NCBI RefSeq assembly: GCF_009389715.1
Contig: NC_052393.1
Location: 4,030,001 to 4,094,000, forward strand
Source: Phoenix dactylifera
Lineage: Eukaryota > Streptophyta > Magnoliopsida > Arecales > Arecaceae
DNA length: 64,000 nucleotides
Direction: 5' to 3'
Position 1 is the stretch's first letter. Each line of letters opens with the position of its first letter. Below, in pieces: positions 2,476 to 39,638 of the stretch. Made by a program: the position numbers and the translations under genes. A model generated the notes under the pieces. The model did not search any database and was not told where the DNA came from. It saw only the letters and a program-made list of their open reading frames with translations.

Positions 2476-2479
2476 TTGC

Positions 2480-4754: not shown

Positions 4755-4758
4755 GAAA

Positions 4759-9579: not shown

Positions 9580-10760
9580 ATGAGCGAGACTGAGATCAAG
9601 GTCTTAGCGGCGAGTTGGTCGTCCGACCAATCTCCTCGAGTTCGGCATTCCTCACATCCCAGTGTAGCTAAGCCCAAAGTCCACTCTGGCTTAGAATACG
9701 AGGTCAATACTTCGTTCCTCCTAAGTTCACTTTTGAGCTCACCAGTCCCGAGTACTGGGTAACTAGTCCTCCTTCTTCTCGGTTCGACTTGTATGAGGAA
9801 ACTCTCGAGGCTGGGATTAGATTGCCTCTCCACCCTTTCATCATCCAGTTGATGAGGGTTTATAGCTTCATCCAGACCTAACTGGTTTTGAACTCATGGC
9901 AGGTTGTCGTAGGTTTTCTTGCTCTCTATTTTCTTCATAACATTCATGCCTCGGTTTCTTTCTTCTAGGGATGCTTCACTTTAAAGAGGCATCCTCAAAA
10001 AAGTAATTAGTGATATTTTTCTTCTCGGAAAAGACCATCAATTGATCCGAGGTACTCCTTTGAGAGCATGACAGTTTGAGACCCTCTAAAGGACACCTTG
10101 GAGGTCTTTGAACTGATCTCCACAGTTGTCCGGTGACGATAAGGGATCTTTGGACACTCTTCTTAAATTGAAGATTCGTCTGTTGCAAGAACTGTTATCC
10201 AAGGAGACACTAATTAATGTTGTCTTGAGCCCAGCCGGCCCTTAGGATAAAATTCCTTAGATTTTTAATCTTTTCACCTCATCGTTAAGTTCTATTGTCT
10301 AACATTCTTCTCAGCCTTGCAGTTGTTGGAGCTATGAAGGCCGACCTAGCATTGATTCGAAAAGCTATGCGCAAGAGAGCAGCTGCGACATTTGGGGGTG
10401 AAACTCCTCAAAAGAAGAAGACGAATTGAGGATTTACTTTGAGTTTTTTCGAGGCCATGGTTAAGGCCTCTGTTCCTAAGGTCTCTATTCCTGAGGTGCT
10501 GGAACCTCGGCCAGAAAGTGTAGAGCTCAACCTTGAGGTCGAGATCATGTCATCCATCAGGTTGGCTCTTCCAGAAGGGCTTGTCCTTGCCTAGCTGGCC
10601 ACCACCGCTCTGATTGCCTATCCAACATCATATGATGCTACTACCTCACCCTAAGCTGTTCCAATTTCATCAGCTTCACTAGAACACAGCTCTGTAGCTC
10701 CGTCCTCCACACCGATCTCCTTGGGTCGTGCTGCCTCTGAGTTCTCCATCCTGAGGTGGT
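9580..10760 (+). pseudogene. Transposase_28-type gene fragment, copy A1
   Basis: It starts MSETEIKVLAASWSSDQSP and resembles the N-terminus of the gypsy-borne gene. A 40-bp deletion near 9705, relative to copy B1, removes the EEMDLLRAQYFVP region and shifts the frame. The domain then continues with stops (for example after SFIQT). The basic linker exon (MKADLALIRKAMRKRAA near 10334) follows an intron-like acceptor. The copy ends within the linker at about 10760, where it joins a second copy of the upstream sequence GAGGCAACCTTTGCTG, so the coiled-coil exon is missing. Not functional. Confidence 0.65.
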
Positions 10761-10960
10761 TGGGACGAGGCAACCTTTGCTGAAGTAGCACAGATGCATG
10801 TATTTGTTGTATTTCTAGAATGTATTTTTTTTTCTCCACTTTTTCTCTAGTTCTTTTACTAGTTGAGAAAGTCCTCTCACTGAATGAAAGTCCACTTTTG
10901 GCTGTTCGAATTTTTCCTTCCTTTTCTTTTTTTTTGTCTTTTGTCTTTTCTATTTTCTAC

Positions 10961-12951
10961 ATGAGCGAGGTTGAGATCAAGATCTTAGCGGCGAGTTGGT
11001 CATCCGACCAATCTTCTCGAGCTTGGCTTTCCTCACAGCGCAGTGTGGTTAAGCCCGAAGTCTACTCTGGTCTAGAATACGAGGTGCCAGTCCTCACCCA
11101 AGAGGAGATGAACTTGCTCCGAGTTCAATATTTCGTTCCCTTAAAGTTCACTTTTGAGCTCGCCGGTCCTGAGGACCGAGTAACTAATCCTGCTCCTTTT
11201 CGGTTCGACCTGTACAAAGAAACTCTCAAGGCTGGGCTTAGATTGCCCCTCCACCCTTTCATCATCCAGTTGATGAGAGTTCATAGCCTCATCCAGACTC
11301 AATTAGTTCCGAACTTCTTACGGGTCATCATAGGTATTTTTGCCCTCTATTTTCTTCATAACATTCATGCCTTGGTTTCTCTCTTTTGGGGATGCTTCAC
11401 TTTAAAGAGTTATCCTCAAAAAAGTAATTGGTAATATTTTTCTTCTCGGAAGGGCCGCTAATTGATCCGAGGTACTCCTATTCACGGTTGGAATGAGATA
11501 TTTTTTTCGTTTCTTCTAAGCAGCCATGGCGGTTTGAGACCCTATAGAGGACATCTCGGAGGTCTTTGAACTGACCTCTATAGTTGTCCGGTGACGATTA
11601 GGGATCCTTGGACACTCTTCTTAAATTGAAGATTCGTCTGTTGCAAGAACTGTTATTCGAGGAGACACTTATCAATGTTGGCTTCAGCCCAACCAACCCT
11701 TAGGATAAAGTTCCTCAGATTTTTAATCTTTTCACCTCGTCATTAAGTTCTATCGTCAAACATTCTCCTCAGCCTTGCAACTGTTGCAGCTATGAAGACT
11801 AATTTAACATTGATTCGAAAATCTATGTGCAAGAGAGCAGCTGCGACATCTGGCGTTGAAACTCCTCAGAAGAAGAAGACGAAGAGAGGATCAAGTTCAG
11901 GTCTTTCCGAGGCCATGGTTGAGGCCTCTATTCCTAAGGTCTATGTTCCTGAGGTGCCAAAACCTCGAACAGAAAGGGTGGAGCTCAACTCTGAGGTCGA
12001 GATCATGTCACCCATCTAGTCAGCTCCTCTAGAAGGGCTTGTCCTTGCCTAGCTGTCCACTACCACTCTAACTGCCTCTCCGACATCATATGATGCTTCT
12101 ACCTCAGCCCAAGCTAGTCTAATTTCAACAGTTCCACTAGAACACAGCTCCGTAGCTCCGCCCTCCACATCGAGCTCCTTGGGTCATACTGCCTCTGAGT
12201 TCTACATCCCGAGGTGGTCAGTTAAAGCTTCAGACTCGGCTTTGTTTTCTCCTCTGAGTTCTACATCATAGTTCATGATGTTTAGCTGTAGGGTGATAAA
12301 AATATCGTAAGATCTGTCCATGTCAATGACTTAATTGATAGGACTTTTACCTCGATCATCTGGGTAAGTTTTTATACTAATATTTTATAAAGTGTTTTAC
12401 TTCGGATATTGATCACTTCTTTTCTGCAACATGTCCACGAGGCTTGTTATATGTACGAGGCCATTATGACGCTTAGGCATCATGTCTCGGACGTTGAAGC
12501 AAAATGGAGGCTATCAAGCAGAAAGTTGCTAAGGTCGAGGTGAAGTCAAGGGCCGATCTTGAGCAGGCAGAGGAGCTAGCTCGGCTAGCTAAGGAGAGGG
12601 CGAGGAAGGCCGAGGAAAAGATTGAGTCAGTAGAAGTGCAAGCCTCGACTGCTCGAACTCGTGCAATGATATCCGACAGCCGTCTTTCTGAGGCTAGGGA
12701 GGCCTTCTTGCCGTCCGAATAATGAGTAGCAGAGCTATTTGTGAAAATTGGTCAGGCCGAGTAGGAGGCTGTCAAGGCCAAGAAGAAGGTTAGTAGGGCC
12801 GAAGAGAGGGCCACTCGGGCGCTTAAGGAGTTCTTTGCTTCAGATAAATTTAAGGTGGAGTCTGCTGAGAATGCCACCGATGCCTTTGCAAAAGGCTTTG
12901 AAGAGTATCGAGCTCAAGTCCAATGAAGAGGATGGCAATGACGAAGAGTGA
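10961..12951 (+). pseudogene. Transposase_28 / basic linker / coiled-coil gene, copy A2
   Basis: This is the most complete array copy. Exon 1 (ATG 10961, open to 11434, 157 codons) holds the Transposase_28-like domain: EEMNLLRVQYFVP, then RFDLYKETLKAGLRLPLHPF, then LIQTQLVPNF. After LKSYPQKSNW a stop replaces Trp of the related GWWYFSPRGG, and more stops follow. Exon 2 (about 11768 onward) is Lys/Arg-rich (TPQKKKTKRGSSSG), a possible nuclear signal, with a stop at 12017-12019. A donor-like CTGGGTAAGT lies near 12360. The coiled-coil exon (about 12430-12951) has several stops and ends DDE-rich. The exon plan matches the antisense gene of the gypsy elements. Likely a pseudogene; the 157-codon first exon could still be translated. 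Confidence 0.65.
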
Positions 12952-15082: not shown

Positions 15083-16239
15083 ATGGCGTCCGGCGAAACA
15101 AGAAGCAGCAGGAGGTGGGTCCCCCGATGGCCCGATCTCTGTACCGATATCCTGGACGTCATCGTCAAGAAGCTCACCCGCGCCGCCGATTACATCCACT
15201 TCCGTTGCGTCTGCAAGTCCTGGCGCTCCTTCGCCAAACCCATCAATCTTCCCTCCCACCTCCCTCTCCTCGTGCTCCCCTACGACCCCGGCTCCCTACG
15301 CCGTCACGTTCTCAGCCTCCCCACCAGGGAGATCCGCACTCTCCTCATCCCCGACCTCGTCGACAGAGTAACCCTCGCCTCCTCCCGCGGCTGGCTCCTC
15401 CTGCTCGACCTCAGACACTGGAGCAGACGCCTCTTCTTGCTGAACCCCCTCACCGGGGCCCAAGTCCAGCTCCCTCCCACCGATGGTTTCCTCCACCTGA
15501 CCGTCTTCGAATTCTCGTGGAAGGCGTACTTGCTTTTGAGCCCGAACTTGGACCCGAGGGATTCCGTGGTGGTGATCGCCGATTGCTATCGTAACTCCCG
15601 TGAAATCGCCTTCTGTAAATTGGGAGATGAATCATGGACCGTGATGAATACCGGTTTGGTCACTGAGCTCGTCTCCGTGGAGCACCATGAGGGGAGCCTC
15701 TATATGATCGACATGCAAAGCAATGCTTCGGTTTGTAAAATTGCTTCCCCTTGGAACCCTGAGCCTATCAATTTGCCGAATGTTGATCTTGAGGGGTGTT
15801 GTCTGTTTTTCGTGACAACATCTACGCAGTTGTTGTTATTTGTCCAATATCATGCAGATCTTATCCCCGATGATGCTGTTTTTGATGATGAACCTTTCGA
15901 TCATTTTATTGGAGTATTTGAGTTGAAGCAGGGGAACGCACCCGGATGGTATAAGATCGAAAGCATTCATTGCAATAAATTGTACATGGCAATGGAGCTA
16001 TTTTCGACCTACCTTCTTTTCGGTTGGGCTATTCCTGGACGCAGAGGAGATTGCATTTTCTATAGCAGTGCTTCTGGCTTTTCATATAGACAGCTGAAGA
16101 GCGATTTCATGAAATAGATGCTTTCGACTTCGAGATCGGCTACGATGATCATATAATTCGTAGCTGGTGTAACTCAACGTCGAATGAGCAGCTGGCTCCT
16201 TTTTGGATCGAGCTCAATCTCTGCAAAATGTTGGAATAG
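15083..16239 (+). pseudogene. F-box/DUF295 gene, copy B, frameshifted near the 3' end
   Basis: The frame opens at ATG 15083 and encodes an intact F-box (WPDLCTDILDVIVKKL) and most of DUF295. One T is missing relative to A, C and D (GCGATTTCATG against GCGATTTTCATG, near 16104-16110). The frame therefore stops at 16115-16117 after 344 residues, losing about 40 C-terminal residues whose sequence is still present to the old stop at 16237-16239. A truncated protein with the F-box could be made, so it may not be fully dead. Residues about 75-211 resemble copy C, while the 3' part and downstream sequence match copy A, a mosaic. A deletion upstream of the ATG removes the in-frame extension seen in A and C. 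Confidence 0.8.
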
Positions 16240-17878
16240 AGTCCAGTTCAGGTAATGCTTGAAAACCATCTTCTATACTTTGAATTTATTTTAGAGTCTT
16301 GGTTACTTATCTGATTAGATGTGAGATGGCATTGTGTGGCTTCCTGAAAATATTTTCTGGAGAAGGAAAATAACATTGATTCAGAACTAAAACTGTAGTT
16401 TGACGATATTGCAGTTTATGGCTTATGCTCTGCCAATTATACAATCATTCCTACAGCACAGTTTTGCACTTAAACTGCCGAGCTGAATCTCCTTTGAAAT
16501 CATGCAATGACAATGCTTTATAAGTCAAGAAGTTTAATTAGGTGTAGGAATTAGATTGCTGTGCCAATTGCCTTTTTGTGTTTATAATGATTTCCACGAG
16601 CCATTGCTTTGTAGGTTGATTCATCCTTATTGCCTAGCTTGTGGCTCAAATATTTATACTACACAAGCCTTCGCTCCTCAAACATTTTTTGCTTTAACAA
16701 TTATTACATTTTAGTCATGTATGTTAAAGTTTTTACCCCACTGAGCCTACATCGTTTGTTATCTAAGCTCAAAAGCAATATAGGAGGAGCCATTTCATAC
16801 AGACCAACAATTGTCTAGTTGAGATCATTTTTTTTCTTAAGCCATACCTGCTTAATGTATGAAATAGCAGTGAAAACCATGCTTTGTCTATAGATCCTAA
16901 TACCCTAATATAGGCTAATCTTGTACAAGTTTCTTAGGCTAATCTGCTCCTCTGGTTTTACTATGTCCTTTGTGCCGTGTATATTTGGAGAAAATTACGT
17001 TGATGCCACACTATTTTCTTGTTATTTTATCCTTTCTGCAAGACACCCACGCTTTTGTCAGATAAAGGTGATCCTACTTATTAAAGAAAGGCAAGAAAGT
17101 GTTGCAATGCATTTTTGCTGGTTGATATTACCAATTCAAGGATGAAGAAAGCATGTTGGAGACACGGAATATTCAGATTATCCTATCATTTTGTTAAAAA
17201 TTCATTTTGGAGCAACACCAGCTCGATGTATCCAACATCTGAGACTCTGAGGATTATCTGACCATCAAGTTTAGTTTGATTTCTTTGAGTCTTTTTCGTG
17301 CATCATCTCCATAATCGAAGTTTAGTTTGAATTTTTAAGTCTTTGCCGTGCATGATCGCCATAATCACTTCCTATATTCTGTGATGAAATATCTTAAACA
17401 TTCATTACAGAAACCCTTTCAATCTATAAAAGTCTCTGTTTCTCTCATTTAGTTGTTTTCCACAGATAGATTCTAGACTCTTTGGTATATCTTCTTCATT
17501 AGTTTTTTCAAGGAGATGCCGTGTGTAGTTTGTAAAAAAATATTTTTTATTACGTTCCACATCTGATGCTTTTCTCTGGTTCGTTTTTTCCCTTGAACTG
17601 ATAATGAATGACTGATCTTTGCAGGGCCTGCAAAAGCTTGAACCTAGGTGTAGCAGACAAGTCAAGCTTGAATCTGGGAAGAGGCAACCTTTGCTGAAGT
17701 AGCACAAATGCATATATTTGTTGCAGTTCTAGAATGTTTTTGTTTTTTTTTTTCCACTTTTTTTTCTAGTTCTTTTACTAGTTGAGAATGTCCTCTCCCT
17801 GAATGAAAGTCCGCTTTTTGGCTGCTCGAATTTTTCTTTTCTTTTTCTTTTCCCTCTTTTGTCTTTTCTATTTTCTAC
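16240..17878 (+). other. Downstream region of F-box B
   Basis: Nearly identical to the same region of unit A, with the same donor-like CAGGTAATG after the stop and acceptor-like TTTGCAG near 17618-17625. No gene is seen. Confidence 0.4.
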
Positions 17879-19125
17879 ATGAGCGAGACTGAGATCAAGG
17901 TCTTAGCGGCGAGTTGGTCGTCCTCTTAGCGGCGAGTTGGTCGTCCGACCAATCTCCTCGAGTTCGGCATTCCTCACATCCCAGTGTAGCTAAGCCCAAA
18001 GTCCACTCTGGCTTAGAATACGAGGTGTCAGTCCTCAGCCAAGAGGAAATGGACTTGCTTCGAGCTCAATACTTCGTTCCTCCTAAGTTCACTTTTGAGC
18101 TCACCGGTCCCGAGTACTGGGTAACTAGTCCTCCTTCTTCTCGGTTCGACTTGTATGAGGAAACTCTCAAGGCTGGGATTAGATTGCCTCTCCACCGTTT
18201 CATCATCCAGTTGATGAGGGTTTATAGCTTCATCCAGACCTAACTGGTTTTGAACTCATGGCAGGTTGTCGTAGGTTTTCTTACTCTCTATTTTCTTCAT
18301 AACATCCATGCCTCGGTTTCTTTCTTCTAGGGATGCTTCACTTTAAAGAGGCATCCTCAAAAAAGTAATTAGTGATATTTTTCTTCTCGGAAAAGACCAT
18401 CAATTGATCCGAGGTACTCCTTTGAGAGCATGACAGTTTGAGACCCTCTAAAGGACACCTTGGAGGTCTTTGAACTGATCTCCACAGTTGTCCGGTGACG
18501 ATAAGGGATCTTTGGACACTCTTCTTAAATTGAAGATTCGTCTGTTGCAAGAACTGTTATCCAAGGAGACACTAATTAATGTTGTCTTGAGCCCAGCCGG
18601 CCCTTAGGATAAAATTCCTTAGATTTTTAATCTTTTCACCTCATCGTTAAGTTCTATTGTCTAACATTCTTCTCAGCCTTGCAGTTGTTGTAGCTATGAA
18701 GGCCGACCTAGCATTGATTCGAAAAGCTATGCGCAAGAGAGCAGCTGCGACATTTGGGGGTGAAACTCCTTAAAAGAAGAAGACGAATTGAGGATTTACT
18801 TCGAGTTTTTTCGAGGCCATGGTTGAGGCCTCTGTTCCTAAGGTCTCTATTCCTAAGGTGCTGGAACCTCGGCCAGAAAGTGTAGAGCTCAACCTTGAGG
18901 TCGAGATCATGTCATCCATCAGGTTGGCTCTTCCAGAAGGGCTTGTCCTTGCCTAGCTGGCCACCACCGCTCTGATTGCCTATCCAACATCATATGATGC
19001 TACTACCTCACCCCAAGCTGTTCCAATTTCATCAGCTTCACTAGAACACAGCTCTGTAGCTCCGTCCTCCACACCGATCTCCTTGGGTCGTGCTGCCTCT
19101 GAGTTCTCCATCCTGAGGTGGTTGG
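17879..19125 (+). pseudogene. Transposase_28-type gene fragment, copy B1
   Basis: Close relative of A1 but without its 40-bp deletion, so the EEMDLLRAQYFVPPKFTFEL segment is present. A direct duplication of about 23 bp (two copies of CTTAGCGGCGAGTTGGTCGT, 17902-17945) shifts the first start out of frame. The frame open from 17914 ends at a TAA in 18241-18243, after SFIQT. As in A1, the linker exon is cut and joins a second copy of the upstream sequence, and the coiled coil is absent. Confidence 0.65.
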
Positions 19126-19321: not shown

Positions 19322-21314
19322 ACGAGCGAGGTTGAGATCAAGATCTTAGCGGCGAGTTGGTCATCCGACCAATCTTCTTGAGCTTGGCTTTCCTCACATT
19401 GCAGTGTGGTTAAGCCCGAAGTCTACTCTGGTCTAGAATACGAGGTGCCAGTCCTCACCCAAGAGGAGATGAACTTGCTCCGAGTTCAATATTTCGTTCC
19501 TTTAAAGTTCACTTTTGAGCTCGCCGGTCCTGAGGACCGAGTAACTAATCCTGCTCCTTTTCGGTTCGACCTGTACAAAGAAACTCTCAAGGCTGGGCTT
19601 AGATTGCCCCTCCACCCTTTCATCATCCAGTTGATGAGAGTTCATAGCCTCATCCAGACTCAATTAGTTCCGAACTTCTTACAGGTCATCATAGGTATTT
19701 TTGCCCTCTATTTTCTTCATAACATTCATGCCTCGGTTTCTCTCTTTTGGGGATGCTTCACTTTAAAGAGTCATCCTCAAAAAAGTAATTGGTAATATTT
19801 TTCTTCTCGGAAGGGCCGCTAATTGATCCGAGGTACTCCTATTCACGGTTGGAATGAGACATTTTTTTCGTTTCTTCTAAGCATCCATGGCGGTTTGAGA
19901 CCCTATAGAGGACATCTCGGAGGTCTTTGAACTGACCTCTATAGTTGTCCGGTGACGATTAGGGATCCTTGGACACTCCTCTTAAATTGAAGATTCGTCT
20001 GTTGCAAGAACTGTTATTCGAGGAGACACTTATCAATGTTGGCTTCAGCCCAACCAACCCTTAGGATAAAGTTCCTCAGATTTTTAATCTTTTCACCTCG
20101 TCATTAAGTTCTATTGTCAAACATTCTCCTCAGCCTTGCAACTGTTGCAGCTATGAAGACTAATCTAGCATTGATTCGAAAATCTATGTGCAAGAGAGCA
20201 GCTGCGACATCTGGCGTTGAAACTCCTCAGAAGAAGAAGACGAAGAGAGGATCAAGTTCAGGTCTTTCCGAGGCCATGGTTGAGGCCTCTATTCCTAAGG
20301 TCTATGTTTCTGAGGTGCCAAAACCTCGAACAGAAAGGGTGGAGCTCAACTCTGAGGTCGAGATCATGTCACCCATCTAGTCAGCTCCTCTAGAAGGGCT
20401 TGTCCTTGCCTAGCTGTCCACTACCACTCTAACTGCCTCTCCAACATCATATGATGCTTTTACCTCAGCCCAAGCTAGTCTAATTTCAACAGTTCCACTA
20501 GAACACAGCTCCGTAGCTCCGCCCTCCACATCGAGCTCCTTGGGTCATACTGCCTCTGAGTTCTACATCCCGAGGTGGTCAGTTAAAGCTTCAGACTCGG
20601 CTTTGTTTTCTCCTCGGTTATTCAGAGACATAGTTCATGATGTTTAGCTGTAGGGTGATAAAAATATTGTAAGATCTGTCCATGTCAATGACTTAATTGA
20701 TAGGACTTTTACCTCGATCATCTGGGTAAGTTTTTATACTAATATTTTATAAAGTGTTTTACTTCGGATATTGATCACTTCTTTTCTGCAACATGTCCAC
20801 GAGGCTTGTTATATGTACGAGGCCATTATGACGCTTAGGCATCATGTCTCGGACGTTGAGGCAAAATGGAAGGCTATCGAGCAGAAAGTTGCTAAGGTCG
20901 AGGTGAAGTCAAGGGCCGATCTTGAGCAGGCAGAGGAGCTAGCTCGGCTAGCTGAGGAGAGGGCGAGGAAGGCCGAGGAAAAGATTGAGTCAGTAGAAGT
21001 GCAAGCCTCGACTGCTCGAACTCGTGCAATGATATCCGACAGCCATCTTTCTGAGGCCAGGGAGGCCTTCTTGCCGTCCGAATAATGAGTAGCAGAGCTA
21101 TTTGTGAAAATTGGTCAGGCCGAGTAGGAGGCTGTCAAGGCCAAGAAGAAGGTTAGTAAGGCCGAAGAGAGGGCCACTCGGGCGCTTAAGGAGTTCTTTG
21201 CTTCAGATAAATTTAAGGTGGAGTCTGCTGAGAATGCCACCGATGCCATTGCAAAAGGCTTTGAAGAGTATCGAGCTCAAGTCCAATGAAGAGGATGACA
21301 ATGACGAAGAGTGA
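19322..21314 (+). pseudogene. Transposase_28 / basic linker / coiled-coil gene, copy B2
   Basis: Counterpart of A2. The start codon is ACG (CTACACGAGCGAGG), and a TGA occurs soon after (near 19379), so the N-terminus is broken. The domain frame is open over 19406-19795. The basic linker frame (20114-20380) is open and encodes TPQKKKTKRGSSSG; the coiled-coil frame (20771-21085) is open for 104 codons and rich in Glu, Ala and Arg heptads. Stops separate the coiled coil from its C-terminal part. Confidence 0.65.
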
Positions 21315-23456: not shown

Positions 23457-24611
23457 ATGGCGTCCGGCGAAAGAAGCAGCAGGAGGTGGGTCACCCGATG
23501 GCCCGATCTCTCTACCGATATCCTGGACGTCATCGTCAAGAAGCTCACCCGCGCCGCCGATTACCTCCACTTCCGTTGCGTCTGCAAGTCCTGGCGCTCC
23601 TTCGCCAAACCCACCAATCTTCCCTCCCACCTCCCTCTCCTCGTGCTCCCCTACGACCCCCACTCCCTACAACGTCACGTTCTCAGCCTCCCCACCAGGG
23701 AGATCCGCACTCTCCTCATCCCCGACCTCGTCGACAGAGTAATCCTCGCCTCCTCCCGCGGCTGGCTCCTCCTGCTCGACCTCAGATACTGGTGCAGACG
23801 CCTCTTCTTGCTGAACCCCCTCACCGGGGCCCAAGTCCAGCTCCCTCCCACCGATGGTTTCCTCCACCTGACCGGCTTCGAATTCTCGTGGAAGGCGTAC
23901 TTGCTTTTGAGCCCGAACTTGGACCCGAGGGATTCCGTGGTGGTGGTCGCCGAGTGCTATCGTAACTCCCGTGAAATCGCCTTCTGTAAATTGGGAGATG
24001 AATCATGGACCGTGATGAATACCGGTTTGGTCACTGAGCTCGTCTCCGTGGCGCACCATGAGGGGAGCCTTTATATGACCGACATGCAAAGCAATGCTTC
24101 GGTTTGTAAAATTGCTTCCCCTTTGAACCCTGAGCCGATCAATTTGCCGAATATTGATCTTGAGGGGTGTTATCTGTTTTTCGTGACAACATCTACGCAG
24201 TTGTTGTTATTTGTTCAATATCATGCAGATCTTGTCCCCGATGATGCTGATTTTGATGATGAACCTTTCGATCATTTTATTGGAGTATTTGAGTTGAAGC
24301 AGGGGAACGCACCCGGATGGAATAAGATCGAAGGCATTCATGGAAATAAATTGTACATGGCAATGGAGCTATTTCCGACCTACCTTGTTTTCGGTTGGGC
24401 TATTCCTGGACGCAGAGGAGATTGCATTTTCTATAGCAGTGCTTCTGGCTTTTCATATAGACAGCTGAAGGGCGATTTTCATGAAATAGATGATTTTGAC
24501 TTCGAGACCGGCAACCATGAACGAATAATTCGTACTTGGGCGGATTCAACGTCGAATAAGCGGCTGGCTCCTTTTTGGATCGAGCTCAATCTCTGCAAAA
24601 TGTTGGAATAG
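23457..24611 (+). CDS. F-box protein with C-terminal DUF295 domain, copy C
   Basis: 384 residues, single exon, MASGE start. The F-box at about 14-55 (WPDLSTDILDVIVKKL, CVCKSWRSF) and DUF295 region are intact, with the same length as copy A. It differs from A around residues 75-115 (TLLIPDLVDRV, LRYWCRR) and near the C-terminus (ETGNHERIIRTWADS). The expected role is substrate adaptor of an SCF ubiquitin ligase. The frame extends 50 codons upstream as in A, but that part is probably 5' UTR. Confidence 0.85.
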   Translation: MASGERSSRRWVTRWPDLSTDILDVIVKKLTRAADYLHFRCVCKSWRSFAKPTNLPSHLPLLVLPYDPHSLQRHVLSLPTREIRTLLIPDLVDRVILASSRGWLLLLDLRYWCRRLFLLNPLTGAQVQLPPTDGFLHLTGFEFSWKAYLLLSPNLDPRDSVVVVAECYRNSREIAFCKLGDESWTVMNTGLVTELVSVAHHEGSLYMTDMQSNASVCKIASPLNPEPINLPNIDLEGCYLFFVTTSTQLLLFVQYHADLVPDDADFDDEPFDHFIGVFELKQGNAPGWNKIEGIHGNKLYMAMELFPTYLVFGWAIPGRRGDCIFYSSASGFSYRQLKGDFHEIDDFDFETGNHERIIRTWADSTSNKRLAPFWIELNLCKMLE

Positions 24612-28882: not shown

Positions 28883-30926
28883 ACGAGTGAGGCTGATATC
28901 AAGGTTTTAGCGGCGAGTTGGTCATCCGACCAATCTCCTCGAGCTCGGCATTCCTCACATCCCAGTGTGGCTAAGCCTGAAGTCCACTCTGGCCTAGAAT
29001 ACGAGGTGTCAGTTCTTACCTAAGAGAAGATGGACTTGCTTCGAGCCCAACATTTCGTTCCTTCCAAGTTCACTTTTGAGCTCGCCGGTCCTAGGATCGG
29101 GTAACTAATCCTGCTCCTTCTCAGTTCGACCTGTACTAGAAAGCTCTCAAAGCTGGGCTTAGATTGCCCCTCCACCCTTTCATCATTCAGTTGATGAGGG
29201 TTTATAACCTCATCCAGACTCAACTAGTTCCGAACTTCTTACGGGTCATCATAGGTATTTTTGCCCTCTATTTTCTTCATAACATCCATGCCTTGGTTTC
29301 TCTTTTTTGGGGGATGCTTCACTTTAAAGAGGCATCCTCGAAAAAGTAATTGGTGGTATTTTTCTCCTCAGAAAAGCCGCTAATTGATTCGAGGTACTTC
29401 TTCTATTCACGGATGGAAGGAGACATCTTTTTTCGTTTCTTCTGAGCAGCCATGGTGGTTTGAGACCCTGTAGGCGACACTTCAGAGGTCTTTGAACTGA
29501 CCTCCACAGTTGTCCAGTGATGATCAGGGATCCTTGGACACTCTTTTTAAATTGATGATTTGTCTGTTGCAAAAATTGTTATCCAAGGAAACACTAATCA
29601 ATGTTGGCTTCAGCCCAACCGACCCTTAGGATAAAATTCTTTAGATTTTTAATCTTTTCACCTCGTCATTAAGTTCTATTGTCTAACATTCTCGTCAGCC
29701 TTGCAGCTGTTGCAGCTATGAAGACTAACCTAACATTGATTCGAAATCTATGTGCAAGAGAGCGGCTGTGACATCTGGGGTTGGAACTCCTCAGAAGAAG
29801 AAGATGAAGAAAGAATCTACTTCAGGTCTTTTTGAGGCCATGGTTGAGGCCTCTATTCCTAAGGTCTCTATTCCTGAAGTGCCGGAACCTCGAATAGAAA
29901 GTGTGGAGCTCAATCCTGAGGTCGAGATCATGTCACCCATCTGGTCGCTCCTCTAGAAGGGCTTGTCCTTGCCTAGCTATCCATCGCCGCTCTGACTGCC
30001 TCTCCGACATCATACGATGCTTCTACCTCAACCCAAGCTAGTCTAATTTCATCAGCTCCACTGGAACACAGCTCCGTAGCTCCATCCTCCACATCGAGCT
30101 CCTAGGGTCATGCTGTCCTTGGGTCATGTTGCTTCTGAATTCTACATCCCGAGGTGGTCGGTTAAAGCTTTAGACTCGGCTTTGTTGTCTCCTTAGGTGT
30201 CCAGAGACAGTTCATGATGTTTAGCTGTAGGGTGATAAAAATATCGTAAGATCTGTCCAGGTCAATGACTTAATTGACAGAACTTTTACCTCGATCATCT
30301 GGGTAAGTTTCTGTACTAATATTTTATAAAGTGTTTTAATTCGGATATTGATCACTTCTTTTCTGCAACATGCTCACAAGGCTTGTTATATGTACGAGGC
30401 CATTATGACGCTTAGGCATCATGTCTCGGACGTTGAGGCGAAATGGAAGGCTGTCGAGCAGAAAGTTACTGAGGTCGAGGTGAAGTCAAGGGCCGATCTT
30501 AAGCAGGCAGAGGAGCTAGCTCGGCTAGCTGAGGAGAGGGCGAGGAAGGCTAAGGAAAAGATTGAGTTAGTAGAAGTGCAAGCCTCGACTACTCGAACTC
30601 GTGCAATGATATCCGACAGCCATCTTTCTGAGGCTAGAGTGGCCTTCTTGGCATTCGAACAATGAGTAGCAGAGCTATTTGCGAAAATTGGTCAGGCCGA
30701 GTAGGAGGCTGTCAAGGCCAAGGAGATGGCTAGTAGGGCCTAAGAGAGGGCCACTCGGGCGCTTAAGGAGTTCTTTGCTTCAGATAAATTTAAGGCGAAG
30801 TCTGTTGAGAATGCCACCAATGCGTTTGCAAAAGGTTTTGAAGACTATCGAGCTCAAGTCCTTCGATTTTACCTAGAGATGGATTTCAACATCCTTCATA
30901 TTGACCTCGACAATGACGAGGAGTGA
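28883..30926 (+). pseudogene. Transposase_28 / basic linker / coiled-coil gene, unit C
   Basis: Single copy here, without the internal duplication of A and B. The start is ACG as in B2. Stops and a frameshift break exon 1 (after SVLT and after the AGP segment), but RLPLHPFIIQLMRVYNLIQT and LVPNFLRVIIGIFALYFL are preserved. Exon 2 (about 29718 on) keeps the basic linker PQKKKMKKESTSG. The coiled-coil exon is open for 105 codons (30348-30665). The true 3' end is kept only here: AKGFEDYRAQVLRFYLEM, then HIDLDNDEE and TGA at 30924-30926. It aligns with the QVQQFCPG region of the gypsy-borne gene. Confidence 0.65.
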
Positions 30927-31500
30927 TACTCCTATCCTCCCAATTACTATGGCAATAAATAATAACTACCTGCCCCATAGCAAGTCCGTAGTCACATCAA
31001 GTCATATCCTACTTACCAAACATATTTAGATCGCATGTCATGACATGTTGAAGGATGACAGTTATAACAAACTACTTGTGTGCTATTAATGGATTTTGAT
31101 GTCCTTTCTTTACAACGAGCACTTCTCTTGACTTCATCATGAATGCTTTCTATTAGGAAGCCTCATAGCAGTAACCATTGCAGTGGATGCTCCATTTTCG
31201 TGAATCCTTTCATGTTGGCTTTAAGGCATGCTGCTGCTTTCGAGTTTCAACGATATTTGATTCATTAGAGCACAACCTTTTAAAATGGGCTTTCTAGGAA
31301 ACATCGAAACCAGGTACATTAATCTACATGCTTTTCATTTATGCGTCGTTTCATTTACATATTGCCATCAGTTTTTGTCAGCTGTGTCGTTGTTGTCTTG
31401 TGCTTACCTGCATCCATTTCCTCAATTGGTATCTGCAATGTTTCAGTTAATTTGACAAATCGTGACTTGTTAAGCATACGATCACATCGACTTTATATGT
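30927..31500. other. Spacer of unit C, left of the insertion
   Basis: Counterpart of the start of the A/B and B/C spacers. It ends in TATGT (31496-31500), the left target duplication of the 9.7-kb element. Confidence 0.55.
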
Positions 31501-32497
31501 TGATGGAAAATGGATCGTCCTACTTACAACAATGAGGGCCACTCAATTTCGGCCAAATAGGCCCCAGCACCGACCGGGCCGGATATCGGCCCCGCCCAGA
31601 GCCAGTTCGAGCCCAGACTCCGCCGAAGGCACAGTTGACCTCGGCCGAATATCTCCGCTGCCGCGGCCTACAGCAATCTTCTAATTGTCATGATGACGTT
31701 CCGTGCCCAAGTATGGGACGTCCTAAAAATTTCTTCGACCTCGGGGCGCCTCCTGTATTCGCGGACTCGCCTCGACCAAGCTCGGGACGCCTTCTGTATT
31801 CGCCGACTTGCCCTGACCAAGCTCGGGGCACCTTCCTTATTCGCCGACGCGCCCCAACTGAGCTCGGGGCACCCTCGCCTATGATACGCCCCGACCCTTG
31901 ACCTCGGGGCGCTCTGCCGAGCACACCTCGAAACCCGGGGTGCTAGGCTAACCTCAGCACCCGTCAAGCCGACTTCGCCAAATACATGATGCGACCTCTC
32001 AACAAACTTGGCCTTGCCAACGGCTGCATCCATGTGCGTGCCTACGCCCTCCTACGTAGCCGTACATCGCGACACCACTACGCCATGCTTGCTGGCTCAC
32101 GACAGTCAAGAATAGCGCCATGATACTCTAGCCATACCCTGCTACGACTGTCAATGTCTTACCACTCACAAGGATGGACCGCACCATGCGCCACAAGCAA
32201 GCTCTGGCTGCACACCATCTCCACTCATGATGAAAATGGGCCATACCTCCGCCACCTGGGCGCCACCACCGGGGCTATAAATGACCCCATTAGGTAACAC
32301 CTAAGGAACTTTTTTGCTGGACCAACTGAATACCACACTGACTTGATCGTCGGAGGGCCCTCACCAGAAAAACCGGTAAGGCTTTGTGCACGTACGCCAC
32401 CGCGTGGGAAGTGGCTTCCATCTTTTTCTTCCACACTCCGGCAGCTCCCTCGACTCCTCCGGCATGGTCACCCTCGGGACAGATTTGAACCATAATA
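31501..32497 (+). repeat. 5' LTR of element 2 (997 bp)
   Basis: It matches the 3' LTR from TGATGG to GAACCATAATA. It contains about three GCTCGGGGC...GTATTCGCCGACT subrepeats of about 43 bp (31737-31870) and about 200 bp that are missing in the 3' LTR. Its outer open frames are not genes. Confidence 0.85.
32276..32282 (+). promoter_or_regulatory. TATA box in the 5' LTR
   Basis: GGGGCTATAAATGACCCC occurs here and at 40993-40999 in the 3' LTR. It is the likely core promoter for the sense transcript. Confidence 0.5.
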
Positions 32498-32499
32498 TT

Positions 32500-32518
32500 T
32501 GGCGCTAGAAGAAGGGCC
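32500..32518 (+). other. Primer-binding-site candidate of element 2
   Basis: TGGCGCTAGAAGAAGGGCC starts 2 bp after the LTR end. It is conserved in element 1. The tRNA was not identified. Confidence 0.5.
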
Positions 32519-32699
32519 TGAGTCGTGATCATGAGGCTAAGGAGTCACGGAGCTCCAAACATATCGAGCAGCCGAGTACCAATGCCCGGCTACTCCCTTC
32601 AAAGTCCACCTCCTGCAGCGCCCACACCAGCAAACCAGATTCCTCAGGTCTAGCCATAGCAGTTTTACCTCCTCGCTTAGCAAGTCCAAGCTCTTACCA

Positions 32700-33143
32700 C
32701 AGCTGTTCAAAGCCTTCAACCGGTAGGAGCCTCATTAATCGCCGAGCTCGATAGAAAAGTTGAGAAAGTGGGGCGACAAGTTCAGATGCTCTGGCTCAAG
32801 TTGTAGAACGCCACGAAGAGCGCCATTGATCGAGGAGCAGATCCCCCTGAAGGTCCAGTAATTATGCCCCCCTCCAAGGTTTCAAAAAGTACACTCCCCT
32901 TACATCCTTCCAGACAGAGATCCTCATGGAAATCGAGGGTTGCGGCTATTTTTGACCTCCACCGAAAATGCGACCGTCAGGGTCGCGGAAGCATTCAGAC
33001 AAATACTGACACTTCCACAAAGACCACGGTCATGACACGAAAGACTGTTACCAGCTCCGTGATAAGATTGAAGCGATTGTCCGCCAAGATCTGCTGAGAC
33101 GGTTTGTCTGTGGGCAAGCCGATAGAATGGAGCTCGAGGCATA
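32700..33143 (+). pseudogene. gag remnant of element 2
   Basis: LIAELDRKVEKVGRQVQ near 32732 corresponds to the gag part of element 1. From about 32998 a frame reads DKY, stop (TGA 33007-33009), then HFHKDHGHDTKDCYQLRDKI, the plant gypsy gag C-terminal motif. The stop replaces the usual Cys codon (TGC to TGA), and another stop lies in the upstream frame after MLWLKL. Gag cannot be made from this copy. Confidence 0.7.
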
Positions 33144-33439
33144 GAGCCTAGAGCCACCCAACGGGCCCGACAACAATCGCCCCAGCGTAGGCACCATCAA
33201 CACCGCACCTGCGCATCCCGCACGCTAGCAGCTTTCTGACTTCCGGGGGGGCAAGGACGAGGCCGCACCCCCATCAGTCCGGGTCTGACGACCTAGGATG
33301 TAAGCTATAACCCCCGGATGGGACCTTAGCCCCTCCAGATCAGAATTTTTAAATCTCAAAATGTGTCAATTAATAAAGTTACCCTCTGGAATTTTCCCAA
33401 AGTATCTTTGAAACTTCCTAATGGGCTCGACGCATTCCG

Positions 33440-34345
33440 GTTGCCCCCATAGTGCGAGTTATATATTGACAAATCTACAAAATCGTCCTCCGAGCCCGGC
33501 TCGGGATGCCCTCTAGTTTCAACCGAGAGCCAAAGGGCTTCGCAACTGCGAGATCTATCTACATAGTCGTCCCTTGAGCCCGGCTCGGGATGCCCTGCAG
33601 TTTCAACCAGAGCCAAAGGGCCTCACGACTGTAGGATCTATCTCCGAAGTCATCCCTCGAGCTCGGCTTGGGATGCCCTGCAGCTTCAACCGAGAGCCAA
33701 AGGGCCTCGCGACTGTAGGATCTATCTCTGAAGTCGTCCCTCGAGCTCGGCTCGGGACGCCCTGCAATTTCAACCGAGAGCCAAAGGGCCTCGCAACTGC
33801 AGGATCTATCTATAAAGTTGTCCCTCAAGCCCAGCTCGGGACGTCCTGCAGTTTCAACCGAGAGCCAAAGGGCTTCGCAACTGTATAATCTATTTACAAA
33901 CTCGTCCCTCGAGCTAAGCTCGGAACGCCCTGCAGTTTGAACTGAGAGCCAAAGGGCCCTGCAACTGCAAGATCTATTTAAAAAGTCGTTTCTCGAGCTC
34001 GGCTCAGGACACCCTACAGTGCCAACCGAGAGCCAAAGGGTCTTGCGACTGCAAGATCTATCTACAAAGTCGTCCCTCGAGCCTAGCTCGGGATGCCTTG
34101 CAGTTTCAACTGAGAGCCAAAGAGCCTCGCAACTGTAGGATCTATCTACAAAGTCATCCCTCGAGCCCGGCTCGAGACATCCTGCAGTTTCAATCGAGAG
34201 CCAAAAGGCATCGCAACTGTAGGATCTATCTACAAAGTCATCCCTCGAGCTAAGCTTGGGACGCCCTGTAGTTTCAACTGAGAGCCAAAGAGCATCGCAA
34301 CTGCAGGATCTATCTACAAAGTCGTCCCTCGAGCTCGGCTCGGGG
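33440..34345 (+). repeat. Tandem repeat, about 85-bp period, about 10 copies
   Basis: GAGCCAAAGGGC recurs at about 33528, 33610, 33695, 33780, 33865, 33950, 34035, 34120, 34205 and 34290. Each unit also carries GTCCCTCGAGCTCGGCTCGG. Open frames across it come from the repeat. Confidence 0.85.
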
Positions 34346-34860
34346 CGCCCTGCGGCGTCAATGGGGAGCCGCTAAAGAACTTCTCTGTCCGTAGTATTCT
34401 ACAAGTGCGCCCCCCAATCTGAGTGGAGGGCACCCTACGATGTCAACGGAGAACCGTTGAAGAGCACCCCCCATCCGCAGTATTCTACAAGTACGCTTTC
34501 GATCTAAGTGGGGGGCGTCTTGCGGCGTCAATAAAGAGCCATTGAAGATCTCCTTCGTCCCCAGTATTCTACAAGTGCGCCCCCGATCTGAGTGGGGGGC
34601 AGCCTGCGGCGTCAACAGAAAGCCGTTGAAGTGCTCCCCCGTCCGCAGTATTTTACAAGTACACTCTCGATCTAAGTGGGGGGCATCCTGCGGCATCAAC
34701 GGAGAGCCGTTGAAGAGCTCCCCCGTCTACAGTATTCTACAGGTGTGCCCCCGATTTGAGTAGGGGGCCCCCTGCGGCATCAATAGGGGGCCATTGAAGA
34801 GCTCTCCCGTCCATAGTATTCTACTAGTACGCTCCGATTCAGGCGGTGGACACCTTGCGG
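34346..34860 (+). repeat. Tandem repeat, about 85-bp period, about 6 copies
   Basis: AGTATTCTACAAGT-like starts recur at about 34393, 34479, 34563, 34647, 34731 and 34815, with GATCTGAGTGGGGGGC in each unit. It corresponds to one half of the 119-bp unit of element 1 (inverted). Confidence 0.8.
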
Positions 34861-36070
34861 TACCTACAAAGTCATCCCTCGAGCTCAACTCGGGATGCCT
34901 TGCGCTGTGTCAATTGCAAGCCAAAGAGCTTCCACGACCGCAGGTATCTACAACGACGTCCCTTGAGCTAAGTTCGGGGCGCTCGACGAGCCAAAGGAAT
35001 CTCCCCCGCTGCTGCCACATTAAGGGATGTATCATCCGAGCTCGGCCCGGAAAGCTCGGCGATTATGGGATCTATCTACAAAGTCGTCCCTTGAGCTCGC
35101 CTCAGGACGCCCTGTAGTTTCGATCGGGAGCCAAAGGGCCCTGCAACTGTAGAATTTATCTACAAAGTCTTCGCCAGCTCTGCGGGAGTTGCATGGCAAC
35201 ATGGAGACCAAGCTAATCCCTAAGTTATGCAGTGCAGATCTTACTAATTAGGCACAAGGACTCAGGCGAGGCAAGTTTAACACATTGTGCTAGATTCCAA
35301 GGTGGAAAAGAAAATTCACTTCATTCTCCCTGAAAGGCCAGGGGACGATTACAAAAATGGTCGACCTTATGGTCAGGCTGAATACAAAAAGGTCTGAATA
35401 GCCTATTTAGCAAAAGCAAAAAGAGAAAAGGAAACTTAAAAAGAATCATCGGCTTGAACAAGTTTCCGGCCCGGCCACGGTGATAGCCTCTGCAGCATCC
35501 CGAATCATCACCCCCTCCGAGAGCTCGCCCGACCTGACGAGCCCACTCCTCCCGGACGTCATTCTCTCTAGCGCCCGTGAGCGTAGACAAAGCGCATCCT
35601 GTAGCGAGAGCCCTTTGTCATGCCAGTGATGAGGTTCTCCAACCTCTCCTCAGACCGAGCTCCATCCGACGCAACCACTCCATTGCGTCGTGCCATCAGG
35701 GTCTTATTGCTGAAGACCATCCCTACAACTTCTCACAGCAAGGATGGTAGCTAGGAAAGGAGATGAAAATGAGAGAAACTGAGTGAAGGCCCCGAGACCT
35801 CCTTCCTTAAGGTATTATATAGCCTATTTCAACGGCTCGGATTGGGTTAACAAAATGCCTAACTAACTGGATCTCACCATGTGGCATACCCAGAGGCTTC
35901 CTAGGCGGACCTTCCTAGGTCATAACCTCGAAGACTGAAATAGTTATGAGAGCCATTTCGGAGGACGGGCCACTGATGCCCGACTCTTCGCTTTCCATCT
36001 AGTGACGCCTCGAAAAGCGGCGCCCATATAACTCTGCAAAGAATTCCTATGGCCGCTCCCGTCCCAACTG
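34861..36070 (+). other. Element 2 internal spacer
   Basis: Isolated copies of the 85-bp repeat (about 34865-34990 and 35060-35170), then sequence without a recognised gene. Part of 35300-35950 resembles the LTR-proximal, GC-rich sequence of the family. No pol domain was seen. Confidence 0.4.
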
Positions 36071-36960
36071 ATGCAGCAGCTTAATCCGTTCCAGCTCGGG
36101 CTGGTGCTTACCTCCGAGCTTGTTTCTATTCTTGAGCCGGTGTCAACCCTTGAGCGGATTTCTATTCTCGGACTAATGCTTACCTCCAAGCTTGTTTCTA
36201 TTCTCGAGTCGGTGTCAACCCTCGAGCGGACTTCTATTCTAAGGCTGGTGCTTATCCCTGAGCTCGTTTCTATTCTCGAGCTGGTGTCAACCCTCGAGCG
36301 GACTTCTATTCTCGGGCTGATGCTTACCCCCAAGCTCGTTTCTATTCTTAAGCTGGTGTCAATCCTCGAGCGAATTTCTATTCTCGAGCTGGTGTCAACC
36401 CTCGAGCAGATTTCTATTCTCGAGCTGGTCTCGAATCGGTTTTCCTTGTTCGCCAGCGTTTCCCTTCGAGCCGGGCTCAAGGTGACCTGCAATATCAAAT
36501 GAAGAGCCGAGCTCATTTCTATTCTCGAGCTGGTGTCAAACCTCGAGCGGATTTCTATTCTCGGGCTGGTGCTTACCCTCGAGCTCGTTTCTATTCTCGA
36601 GCCGGTGTCAATCCTCGAGCGGACTTCTATTCTCGAGCTAGTGTCAACCCTCAAGCGGATTTCTATTCTCGAGCCGGTATCAACCCTCGAGCAGATTTCT
36701 ATTGTTAAGCCGGTGTCAACCCTCGAGCGGACTTCTATTCTCGGGCTGGTACTTATCCTTGAGCTCGTTTTTATTCTCGACCTAGTGTCAACCCTCGAGC
36801 GAATTTCTATTCTCGAGCTAGTGTCAACCCTCAAGCGGACTTCTATTCTCGAGCTGGTGTCAACCATCGAGCAGATTTCTATTCTCGAGCTAGTCTCGAA
36901 TCAATTTTCCTTGTTTGCCAGCGTCGCCCTTTGAGCCAGGCTTAAGGTGACCTGCGATAT
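36071..36960 (-). repeat. Tandem repeat of 36-bp modules (about 72-bp period), open on both strands
   Basis: GTGTCAACCCTCGAGCGG and TTTCTATTCTCGAGC alternate throughout. On the minus strand a frame is open for 307 codons (35944-36867) as repeats of a 12-residue motif of the type SRVDTSSRIEIR; long plus-strand frames are open too. A larger duplication of about 466 bp is seen, with TTTTCCTTGTTCGCCAGCG near 36438 and a similar copy near 36904. It is the inverted equivalent of the 108-bp array of element 1. I regard the open frames as a consequence of the 36-bp period, not proof of a protein. Confidence 0.75.
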
Positions 36961-37336
36961 CAAATGAAGAGCTACAAGCTCGTTCGACTGAAGGATTATC
37001 TCCGAGATGGAAGTAAATGCCGAGCATAAGGACTTCGGCAAATGCCCAATGCGGCTCCTGCTATGCAAGATAGGCCCAGACCTAAGCTACGCAGTTCGAA
37101 TTTTGATAACTGGACACAAAGCAGGACAAGCTCGAATGCCTAGCCAGATTCCAAAAGCAAAGCAAAACGAGCTCAAATACTTGGTCAAGGGTACAACATG
37201 CATAAAGAAATGCAAACTTTATTGATATCAAAAAAGGGCCAAGGGCCAAATACAAGAGACCCCGACCTCGAGGTCGGGTAAATACAAAAGGCCCAGGCGG
37301 CCGACTTTACAGAAATAAAAACAAAAGCTAGTCGAC

Positions 37337-39638
37337 CTAGATGACCTCTACATCAGCATCAGGGGCAGCCTCCGTTCCTTTAGCGGCCTTAGGAGCGGCG
37401 TCTAGGCTAACCTCGAGGGCGCCTTCAGCTTTGATGCCAGCCTCGGGAACGACTTCTAATTCTGTCCCAGTGGTGACTTCGGGGATGATCTCTGGCCTGA
37501 CTTAGGTAATGGCCTTTGCGGCACCCCTGACCACTTCAGCAGCTTCGGCTAGATTCGGCTAAAGGCCACTAAGGTCGACTCTAGGGCAAAATTGTTGCGC
37601 TTGGCCACGACAATTCTCGAATCCCTAGATCATGGCAGTAGTAGCCCCCTCTGCCAGCTCGTCAAGGTATTCCTTTGACTGGCGGAATCTCCTGATGGCC
37701 TCGCGGGCAGACTCCTTTATGAAATTTTCGAGTCGCCCGATCTTTAGCCTCAGGGCCTTGGCCTCGCCCTGCAGGCTGATCAGAGCGGCCTCGAGCTCGG
37801 AGATATGGCCTGCGACGGACGAGCCAGCCCAAGAGCACTCAGCCTCCATATTTTGAATTTGGATGAGCCCGTCTTTAATCAGGGCTTCGGCGGCCCGCAC
37901 CTTCCTTCTGGCTCTCCGAATCCGCTGCGCGACCATTGTGGCATTGTCCTCAGCCTCTTGCTGTCGTTGCGCGGCAGTTACCGTGCAAGCCTCGGCCTCC
38001 TACCTTCGGAGCTTAGCATGCTCCATCCTCGGCCTGAGCGCCTTCATCTCCTTCCGGCAGGCAAACATGCCAGACATTAGCATATCAACCACATGGAGAG
38101 ACTGGCACGAAAGATAAAATGTCAGTGGCGATCGGGCACTTGCAAAGAAAATGAATGAGGAACAGGAGGGCTGTGTCACTCACCTGGATATTGCTTGAAT
38201 AAGCATGACGAACAAAATCATCAAAGTCCTCTTCCATCCGAGCTCGGTCGCACGGGAGCATGATGCTGTGCACGAGCTCGCGAGCAACGTCGCCGGCTCA
38301 AGGGCCACGTTGTCCTCGGACACGCGACACTAATGCCGCAATCGCCCCCTCTCGGATTCGGAAGGAACAGAGCCAACCCTAGCTAGGGTCAAAGCCTCAG
38401 GGGAGCCAAAATCCTAGCTGACGTCGGAGCCTCAGAGAATGCCGCAGCCCCAGTAGGAGTCGGGGCCGCGGGGGAAGTTGGGAGCTCGGGTCCCCTCCCC
38501 AGCTCAAGACCCGATTCGGGTAGCTGGATGGCTTCTCCAACCTTCTGAACTCGGCCGACAGACACGACCGCCACTTGATCAGAAGGGCTCCCTCCTGCCG
38601 CCAATGGGGGCAACTCGGCCTCCACTACGAGAACCTGATCGAATCCAGCTCAAGTAAGGGTGGTGGTCTCAATTGGAGCAAGCTCACCCTGCTCAATTCC
38701 GGAGCCAAAGGTAGCTTTGGCTTTCTTTGGCCTCCGTTCTGGCTGAGCCCCCTCCAAGGTGGCCACCCTCTTTCTATACTTGGCCATTAATATCTCAGCA
38801 CTGAAGATCATCCCTGCAATGTCTGACGACAAAAGATCTTATTAAAATCCGACATGAAAAGAGAAAGGGAGCAACTATGCTACTCTTACCCTCAGGGCGA
38901 GCTGGGCTCAGGCCAACATTTACTAAGGCCTCCTCGCTGAGCAGGTCGGAAAGTCATGGAGTTCCTTCCAGTTCGAGTAAACTGTCTAGAATGCCCTGCT
39001 CAGACTATGACAACTGTAAGAGCCTGTTGTTCGCCGAGGCCAGTAGAAAGCTCCAGGTCGGATTAAACCCCCACGATCGCTCGGAGGAAACAAAGAAAAA
39101 TTTATCCTTCCACCCATGAATGGATGTAGGGATGCCCCCAAAGAGCTTGTGGCCTCCCTGAAGGGAGAAATATCATTATCCTTTGTCTGCGGGGTTGCCT
39201 TTTAATATAAAACAACTCTAAAAAGACACTTATCAAGGAGGACAGACCATGTGCAAGGCAGAGGACGAGAAAGCCGATTATTATTCTCCATGAGTTTGGG
39301 GCAAGCTGTGTGGGCACAAGATGGTAAGCCGTTAGAAGCTCGCCCATGAACCCGTGCAGAGGGAACCTCAACCCCGCTTGAAGCGTCTCTTCGTACACCC
39401 CAATCCAACCTTTAGGTGGGTTGGTGACTCGCCCTCCGAGGTACGGAAGCTCGAGGACAAACTCTGGAGGAACAAAAAATCGAGCTCGAATCGAGCCCAA
39501 ATCCTCATCACTCATAAGCGAGCCGGTCCCATACAAACCTGGGCCCGCCTCGAGCTCAGCCTCCTCCACATTGGAAGAAGCATGGGCTCGAGACGAACCT
39601 GCACCAAGCATCAAGGCTCTCGTAGGTGAACTCATTGT
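37337..39638 (-). pseudogene. Antisense Transposase_28 / basic linker / coiled-coil gene of element 2
   Basis: Read on the minus strand. Exon 1 starts at MSSPTRA (39638), the position equivalent to MSETEIK of the array copies. It contains the Transposase_28-like domain: RARFFVPPEFVLELPY, then GVYEETLQAGLRFPLHGF, then YHLVPTQLAPNSWRIIIGF, open to 39102. Exon 2 (about 38380-38832) has a basic stretch (ERRPKKAKATFGSG) after an acceptor-like GACATTGCAG. Exon 3 begins after GTGCCAG near 38106 and encodes an Arg/Ala/Glu-rich coiled coil. A stop at 37622-37624 replaces Gln, and the frame then continues to TAG at 37337-37339. Exon borders match element 1. Several stops make it a pseudogene here, but the layout is that of a spliced host-like gene. 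Function unknown. Confidence 0.7.

Follow-up and report, generated by a model that had tools for sequence, protein, structure and literature searches.

Broken TRP28 gene copies between tandem F-box genes of Phoenix dactylifera are relatives of an antisense gene of a dispersed LTR element family

The F-box array and its interrupted spacers

The window, by which we mean the whole stretch of 64,000 nucleotides analysed here (C2:4030001-4094000 of the 773-Mb Phoenix dactylifera genome), holds a tandem array of F-box genes of the KIB1-4 type (Table 1). Units 1 and 4 were identified as such by Pfam scan, and units 2 and 3 through their similarity to unit 1. Five of these genes are found across C2:4005001-4094000, including one left of the window with an open frame of 491 codons. 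Between the tandem F-box genes sit relics of a gene with the TRP28 domain (PF04195), and two LTR elements, designated E1 and E2, interrupt the array. A genome-wide DNA search with the relic added two further array loci left of the window.

Table 1. Features of the window, numbered from its first nucleotide, and of the leftmost array copy, numbered on C2
Feature	Position	Strand	Remarks
E1, LTR element of E2 type	1..5628	-	clipped by window edge; whole element C2:4028749-4035628
E1 antisense TRP28 gene remnant	374..1664	+	start and N-terminal half of domain missing
E1 LTR	about 4757-5628	-	target duplication TTGGG/TTGGA (5 bp, one copy of TTGGG changed)
F-box / KIB1-4 beta-propeller gene, unit 1	6570..7724	+	384 aa; Pfam scan
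Array TRP28 relic, unit 1 copy a	9580..10760	+	truncated in exon 2; 40-bp deletion in exon 1
Array TRP28 relic, unit 1 copy b	10961..12951	+	exon 1 open to SNW, then stops
F-box / KIB1-4 gene, unit 2	15083..16117	+	344 aa, shortened C-terminus; similarity to unit 1
Array TRP28 relic, unit 2 copy a	17879..19122	+	frame broken
Array TRP28 relic, unit 2 copy b	19322..21314	+	early exon 1 stop
F-box / KIB1-4 gene, unit 3	23457..24611	+	384 aa; similarity to unit 1
Array TRP28 relic, unit 3	28883..30926	+	single copy, no ATG, exon 1 frameshift
E2, LTR element	31501..41214	+	LTRs 31501-32497 and 40418-41214, K2P 0.136
E2 target duplication	31496-31500 and 41215-41219		TATGT (5 bp)
E2 primer-binding-site-like stretch	32498..32518	+	adjoins left LTR; by eye
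E2 tandem repeats, about 84 bp	33473..34838	
E2 tandem repeats, 36 bp	36095..36891		adjoin TRP28 gene
E2 antisense TRP28 gene	37337..39638	-	three-exon layout, splice sites by eye
E2 purine-rich, PPT-like stretch	40406..40417	+	ahead of right LTR; by eye
F-box / KIB1-4 gene, unit 4	43317..44546	+	409 aa; Pfam scan
L036, leftmost array copy	C2:4013163-4017473		left of window; carries LTR of dispersed family
LTR-like stretch of leftmost array copy	C2:4013626-4014183	

A preliminary description of this DNA had read 9580-12951 and 17879-21314 as one three-exon gene each, and both loci proved to be pairs of tandem copies (9376-10760 and 10761-12218 in unit 1; 17675-19122 and 19123-20579 in unit 2). 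Nor are any of these genes intact: E1, E2 and the five array copies of the window all carry stops, frameshifts or lost starts. In exon 1, the start or the frame is gone in four of the five array copies of the window. For example, a 23-bp tandem duplication (17901-17946) disrupts the frame of unit 2 copy a, and unit 2 copy b has no ATG at the start position.

The array copies have two lesions in common. The alignment shows one stop codon in exon 2 of each of the seven copies and another in exon 3 of each of the five that extend over the site, with unit 1 copy b and the LTR-bearing leftmost copy among them both times; the in-frame state of these stops was read in the window copies, some of which carry earlier frameshifts. 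Neither stop occurs in any of 13 aligned copies from dispersed loci, several of which do not cover the sites. Two other candidate markers were rejected, namely a stop in exon 1, which is absent from the leftmost copies and from copy a, and a change of the exon 1 donor, which is found in several dispersed copies too. Neither of the two was therefore taken as an array marker, and the stops of exons 2 and 3 were the ones used. All array copies are dead. As the two stops recur in every array copy that covers the sites, including the LTR-bearing one, the damage to the remnant preceded its joint duplication with the F-box gene.

The array copies of the window start about 70 bp ahead of the start codon position, adjoining the point at which unit 4 departs from the array (unit 1 position 9507). 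This point looks like a tandem duplication breakpoint, and we take it as one; it would explain why no LTR accompanies the copies within the window. Near these copies, no LTR-like direct repeats were found in the window apart from the tandem copies already described and some short repeats, nor was there any similarity to the LTRs of E1 or E2, nor any pol sequence or target duplication around them. A Pfam scan of 10 open frames from the array flanks (of 21 and 24 listed) gave no transposon family, the best E value being 0.031.

In E2, the primer-binding-site-like and PPT-like stretches set the sense of the element as plus, so that its PF04195 gene, on the minus strand, is antisense. This gene, disrupted by a frameshift and stops, lies near the 3' LTR as it does in the Retand type, the E2 pieces tested having shown no pol to form the other border. 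The internal tandem repeats of 36 and 84 bp match a further Retand trait, one that is frequent there and not obligatory. No Pfam match to gag or pol was obtained in 10 pieces of E2 (8 of 56 listed for 32498-37300 and 2 of 14 for 39640-40430), and at the DNA level E2 does not match the pieces of C89, an element described below; E2 would be at most a non-autonomous Retand-type member. A structure prediction for the E2 domain was unusable (mean pLDDT 41.8), and when viral contigs were scanned twice, with TRP28 proteins of E2 and of the array as queries, no relatives came up. In the E1 gene, one deletion, equal to E2 39700-39317, takes out the ATG together with half of the domain, and intron 1 and part of exon 2 are missing through another (39020-38262 in E2). 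The insertion site of E2 is empty in units 1 and 2, and that of E1 likewise in sister units; the two elements, which lie in opposite orientations, inserted into spacers of the array.

Kinship between the array genes and the antisense genes of E1 and E2, which the preliminary description had proposed, was borne out. Two array ORFs, of units 1 and 2, match PF04195 with 28.8 and 29.1 bits and the E2 gene does so with 51.3 (cut-off 26.2 bits). By tblastx, units 1, 2 and 3 align collinearly with E2 through exons 1 and 2 (E values as low as about 1e-30), the array matches E1 at the protein level in exons 1 and 3, and the array and E2 have the PF04195 domain, a basic linker and a coiled coil in common. 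Of the exon borders said to be shared, exon order and the exon 2 donor do agree by eye between array and element gene. The start is not shared by E1, and the similarity of the array to E2 stops about 50 bp above the ATG.

Dispersed relatives and the tree of TRP28 domains

Relic DNA gave at least 51 matches on many contigs of the genome (40 of 142 candidates scored), and 30 loci were fetched, seven from the array and 23 dispersed. Among the matches listed, many dispersed relatives have about 1 kb in common ahead of the gene, and in several the similarity also continues downstream, up to 1.4 kb past it. One of the relatives, C89, has a pair of LTRs (72.5% identical) and pieces of pol that run antisense to TRP28; these match RVT_1 (E 3.6e-4, 20.7 bits) and RT_RNaseH_2 (E 1.1e-4, 22.6 bits), both below the curated Pfam cut-offs of 29.6 and 29.8 bits, and five of the seven pieces scanned gave no pol family. 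Paired LTRs, pol remnants and an antisense TRP28 gene make up the Retand layout, and it is on this layout that the Retand name would rest for the putative source family.

The LTRs of C89 match 17 of the 22 other fetched dispersed loci and, in addition, the leftmost array copy, L036. With one dispersed probe, 15 of the 18 other dispersed loci given start matching within the same 13 bases, and the match of L036 starts at that same point (L036:464). The LTR and leader of L036 had no match in the other array stretches given, nor in E1 or E2. The link between array and element depends on this copy left of the window, together with the dispersed family.

A tree of TRP28 domains was built from 61 sequences (60 loci minus five repeating copies of the window, plus six stretches of the window). 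Two had no match and one was too short; the 58 domains of at least 60 residues gave 55 rows after identical ones were removed. E2 was included and E1, with half of its domain missing, was left out; from PF04195, the 30 best of 150 scored matches were entered, which represent the best-preserved part of the family. All seven array rows cluster together (96/90) and, with 19 dispersed rows, make up a group of 26 (100/99) opposite E2 and 28 PF04195 rows, with a warning from the tree program that several branches are long (E2, L038, L055 and others), that E2 may be misplaced and that the bootstrap was unsettled. As placed in this tree, E2 would belong to another TRP28 branch than the array. The order inside the group of 26 is mostly without support, and none of the starred branches requires the array to lie among the dispersed rows, but the dispersed rows stand alone on one side of a branch in 0 of 200 bootstrap trees. 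Within the array, the LTR-bearing leftmost copy is basal. The a copies of units 1 and 2 group with the copy at C2:4022666 (100/98) and the b copies with unit 3 (100/100), and the existence of these two types fits unequal crossing-over between units.

The array genes are akin to TRP28 (PF04195), the antisense accessory gene that a family of dispersed elements carries. It has been proposed that the dependence runs the other way, the array genes being a host gene family of which one member was captured by a gypsy element. The array copies do adjoin F-box genes, without any LTR found inside the window, and they have kept their exon layout. However, they are broken and have stop codons in common, their relatives lie dispersed, with the family's LTR present on most of those fetched, and the leftmost copy itself bears that LTR. 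PF04195 exceeds the cut-off at least 150 times in this genome (of 3465 candidates, 150 were scored), and in the tree the array falls together with copies from dispersed elements. A host family would have intact frames, kept by purifying selection and free of LTRs, and such frames were not found in the array. Vicient 2025 (PMC11963269) reports that TRP28 has no similar sequence outside transposable elements. Capture of a host gene is therefore very improbable, and we regard the array genes with high confidence as the remnants of one old Retand-type Ty3/gypsy insertion.

Selection and mutation pattern

Other than a host origin, another potential reading is that an element gene was domesticated and acquired a new function beside the F-box genes. 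In its favor, exon 1 is open in unit 1 copy b, and exon 1 dN/dS in the array lies below 1 in all six comparisons (0.35-0.51). It is low in two of them, at 0.37 (P 0.016) and 0.35 (P 0.005), one-sided and uncorrected, with a third at P 0.050; these low values could reflect some constraint before the death of the copies. Wrong frames of exon 1 yield similar ratios, however, and the loss of start or frame from exon 1 in most window copies counts against a retained function. In exons 2 and 3, six of eight comparisons fall inside neutral simulations and the remaining two are marginal (P 0.044 and 0.086). The mutation pattern, moreover, is like that of the LTRs of E2. We consider domestication highly unlikely and return to the remnants of an old insertion.

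Mutation contexts were compared between units 1 and 3, setting the relic against three pooled spacer stretches. Transversions are equally frequent in the two (45/2183 in the relic vs 34/1659 in the spacers, P 1.0), and the transition rate of the relic is about three times that of the spacers. The excess is found at CHH sites (84/712 vs 14/457, P 3e-8) and CHG sites (36/172 vs 7/102, P 0.002), with no excess in the relic at CG sites (38/157 vs 20/59, P 0.17). The LTR pair of E2 resembles the relic (CHG 16/89, CHH 33/269), and the F-box coding region is without the excess (CHG 7/100, CHH 15/351). In sliding windows, the excess seen when unit 1 and unit 2 are compared starts and stops near the gene body in both cases; unit 2 has an extra upstream peak near 16840-17290, where transversions are raised too. 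Transposon-type cytosine methylation would explain this excess of C-to-T type changes in the relics, and we infer from the pattern that the remnants were probably methylated as transposons.

Upstream of the F-box genes, in a region kept out of the pooled spacers, the CHG and CHH counts are also raised (10/65 and 27/267). The non-CG excess is not specific to the relic, and this region counts against the simple reading of it.

The LTR pairs of E2 (18/790) and E1 (17/868) have about the same proportion of transversions as the relic and the spacers, and by this measure E1 and E2 may be about as old as the split of units 1 and 3. Dating E2 from the raw divergence of its LTRs was set aside, the transitions being inflated. 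Between E1 and E2, the dN/dS of exon 3 is 0.37 for the coding frame (500 simulations, P 0.002), as against 0.90 and 0.82 for the other frames, which indicates that the element gene was under selection in the past. It is conceivable, although we think it rather unlikely, that E1 and E2 represent an LTR family that lost gag and pol and retained its antisense TRP28 gene under purifying selection. If so, TRP28 would aid its own copy in cis, even where elements borrow all their enzymes, and the E1/E2 type would offer a handle on TRP28 function.

Origin of the array copies and comparison with known systems

A local origin, in which the array copies stem from a gene released by E1 or E2, is barely credible: the gene layout is alike and the elements lie in the array, but the main exon 1 stretches have only about 33-44% protein identity, E2 lies across the 100/99 branch from the array, and both elements entered units whose sister units show the empty site.

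Under the favored reading of one old Retand-type insertion, an element of a second TRP28 family would have inserted beside an F-box gene and decayed. The segment with the TRP28 remnant and the F-box gene would then have been duplicated several times, giving the order remnant, F-box, remnant, F-box. The inner copies would have left their LTR behind at the duplication breakpoint, the array may have expanded by unequal crossing-over, and the remnants were presumably held under transposon-type cytosine methylation. In live elements, following published work, TRP28 is probably a DNA-binding accessory protein that regulates the element; the array remnants do not exert this role.

Release of an element gene into the genome, the second origin in the preliminary description, thus has the right direction, in that the LTR of the leftmost copy matches a dispersed element with pol remnants and the tree agrees; what was released was not a working gene, for the LTR-bearing copy shares the two stops. 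Host capture, opposed by the LTR of the leftmost copy, by the tree and by the shared stops, and E1 or E2 as the source, opposed by the other TRP28 branch of E2, both fall away. The preliminary description was to count as refuted if the array copies lay within recent element insertions flanked by LTR remnants. This holds for the leftmost copy, which has its LTR, except that the insertion is old.

According to Vicient 2025 (PMC11963269), an antisense TRP28 gene (PF04195) is present between pol and the 3' LTR in 97% of recently active Retand clusters, and about half have tandem repeats. Such genes, including those of Retand and RIRE2 and gene23 of Grande, are reviewed by Vicient and Casacuberta 2020 (PMC7264820), who describe GENE23 as nuclear and as having its own promoter. 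The element-borne TRP28 gene was thus already known and the array was the open point. The question of passenger or host is answered: the array genes are passenger debris, an ordinary outcome with an explanation, and an apparent exception to the published restriction of TRP28 to transposable elements is removed. TRP28 'genes' without LTRs that lie beside host genes can be truncated element debris. To recognise such cases in gene annotation, one could check the outermost array copy for an LTR and ask whether CHG and CHH transitions are in excess across the gene. The function of TRP28 is touched here through the E1/E2 type only, in which TRP28 is kept and the E2 pieces tested have no gag or pol.

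Among known systems, the Retand type of Ty3/gypsy elements resembles E2 in the antisense TRP28 gene, the tandem repeats and the 5-bp target duplications, and it resembles the C89 relative in the pol remnants antisense to TRP28. It differs in that E2 has no gag or pol in the pieces tested and in that the array copies are fragments, with no pol found, and no LTR found inside the window.

Dasheng and RIRE2 of rice are non-autonomous and autonomous LTR partners, of which Dasheng is regarded as non-coding. E1 and E2 likewise look like a non-autonomous family with an internal layout in common, but they differ from Dasheng in having kept the antisense TRP28 gene. Tandem arrays of F-box (KIB1-4 / DUF295) genes are known in plants. 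Here too, local duplicates of a single F-box gene lie in direct order, with the difference that the units hold a transposon remnant as a passenger.

Divergence of the F-box genes and of the sequence upstream

In all six pairwise comparisons of the four F-box (KIB1-4) genes of the array, whole-gene dN/dS was between 1.15 and 3.95, and each ratio was at or above at least 98.4% of the values from neutral simulations (up to 500 per comparison). Ratios of this size suggest that the tandem duplicates may be under diversifying selection, or else reflect effects of conversion. Between units 1 and 3, CHG and CHH transitions were raised upstream of the F-box genes (10/65 and 27/267 sites, respectively; 5629–6569 compared with 22482–23456), as if another silenced repeat lay there. 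In unit 4, the corresponding region contains internal direct repeats.

Features in the array, its spacers and its right flank
Feature	Position	Remarks
F-box (KIB1-4) genes	6570–7724, 15083–16117, 23457–24611, 43317–44546	compared pairwise
Direct repeats	41692–42080, 42755–43139	unit 4
36-bp tandem repeats	2072–2463	LTR element E1
36-bp tandem repeats	36095–36891	LTR element E2
Longest open frame across repeats	35944–36900	minus strand, 318 aa
R2R3-MYB-like open frames	55033–56272	right of array, by eye

Open frames in the spacers and the right flank

Long frames run on both strands across the 36-bp repeats of the two LTR elements. The repeats, whose length is a multiple of three, keep these frames open; their openness is no evidence for coding. 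The frames right of the array, which we take to resemble an R2R3-MYB gene, carry a C-terminal ten-residue motif, recognized by eye and presumably EAR-like.

A probable duplication boundary and a second relic series

Unit 4 ends at 48961, equivalent to unit 1 position 9507 and near the start of the relic (the dead TRP28 gene copy) in the other units; the site is probably the breakpoint of the tandem duplication. The own-genome DNA search also found another tandem series of the same TRP28 family, with three relics (L046, L047 and L048) spaced ~4.3 kb apart at C47:697089–706918.
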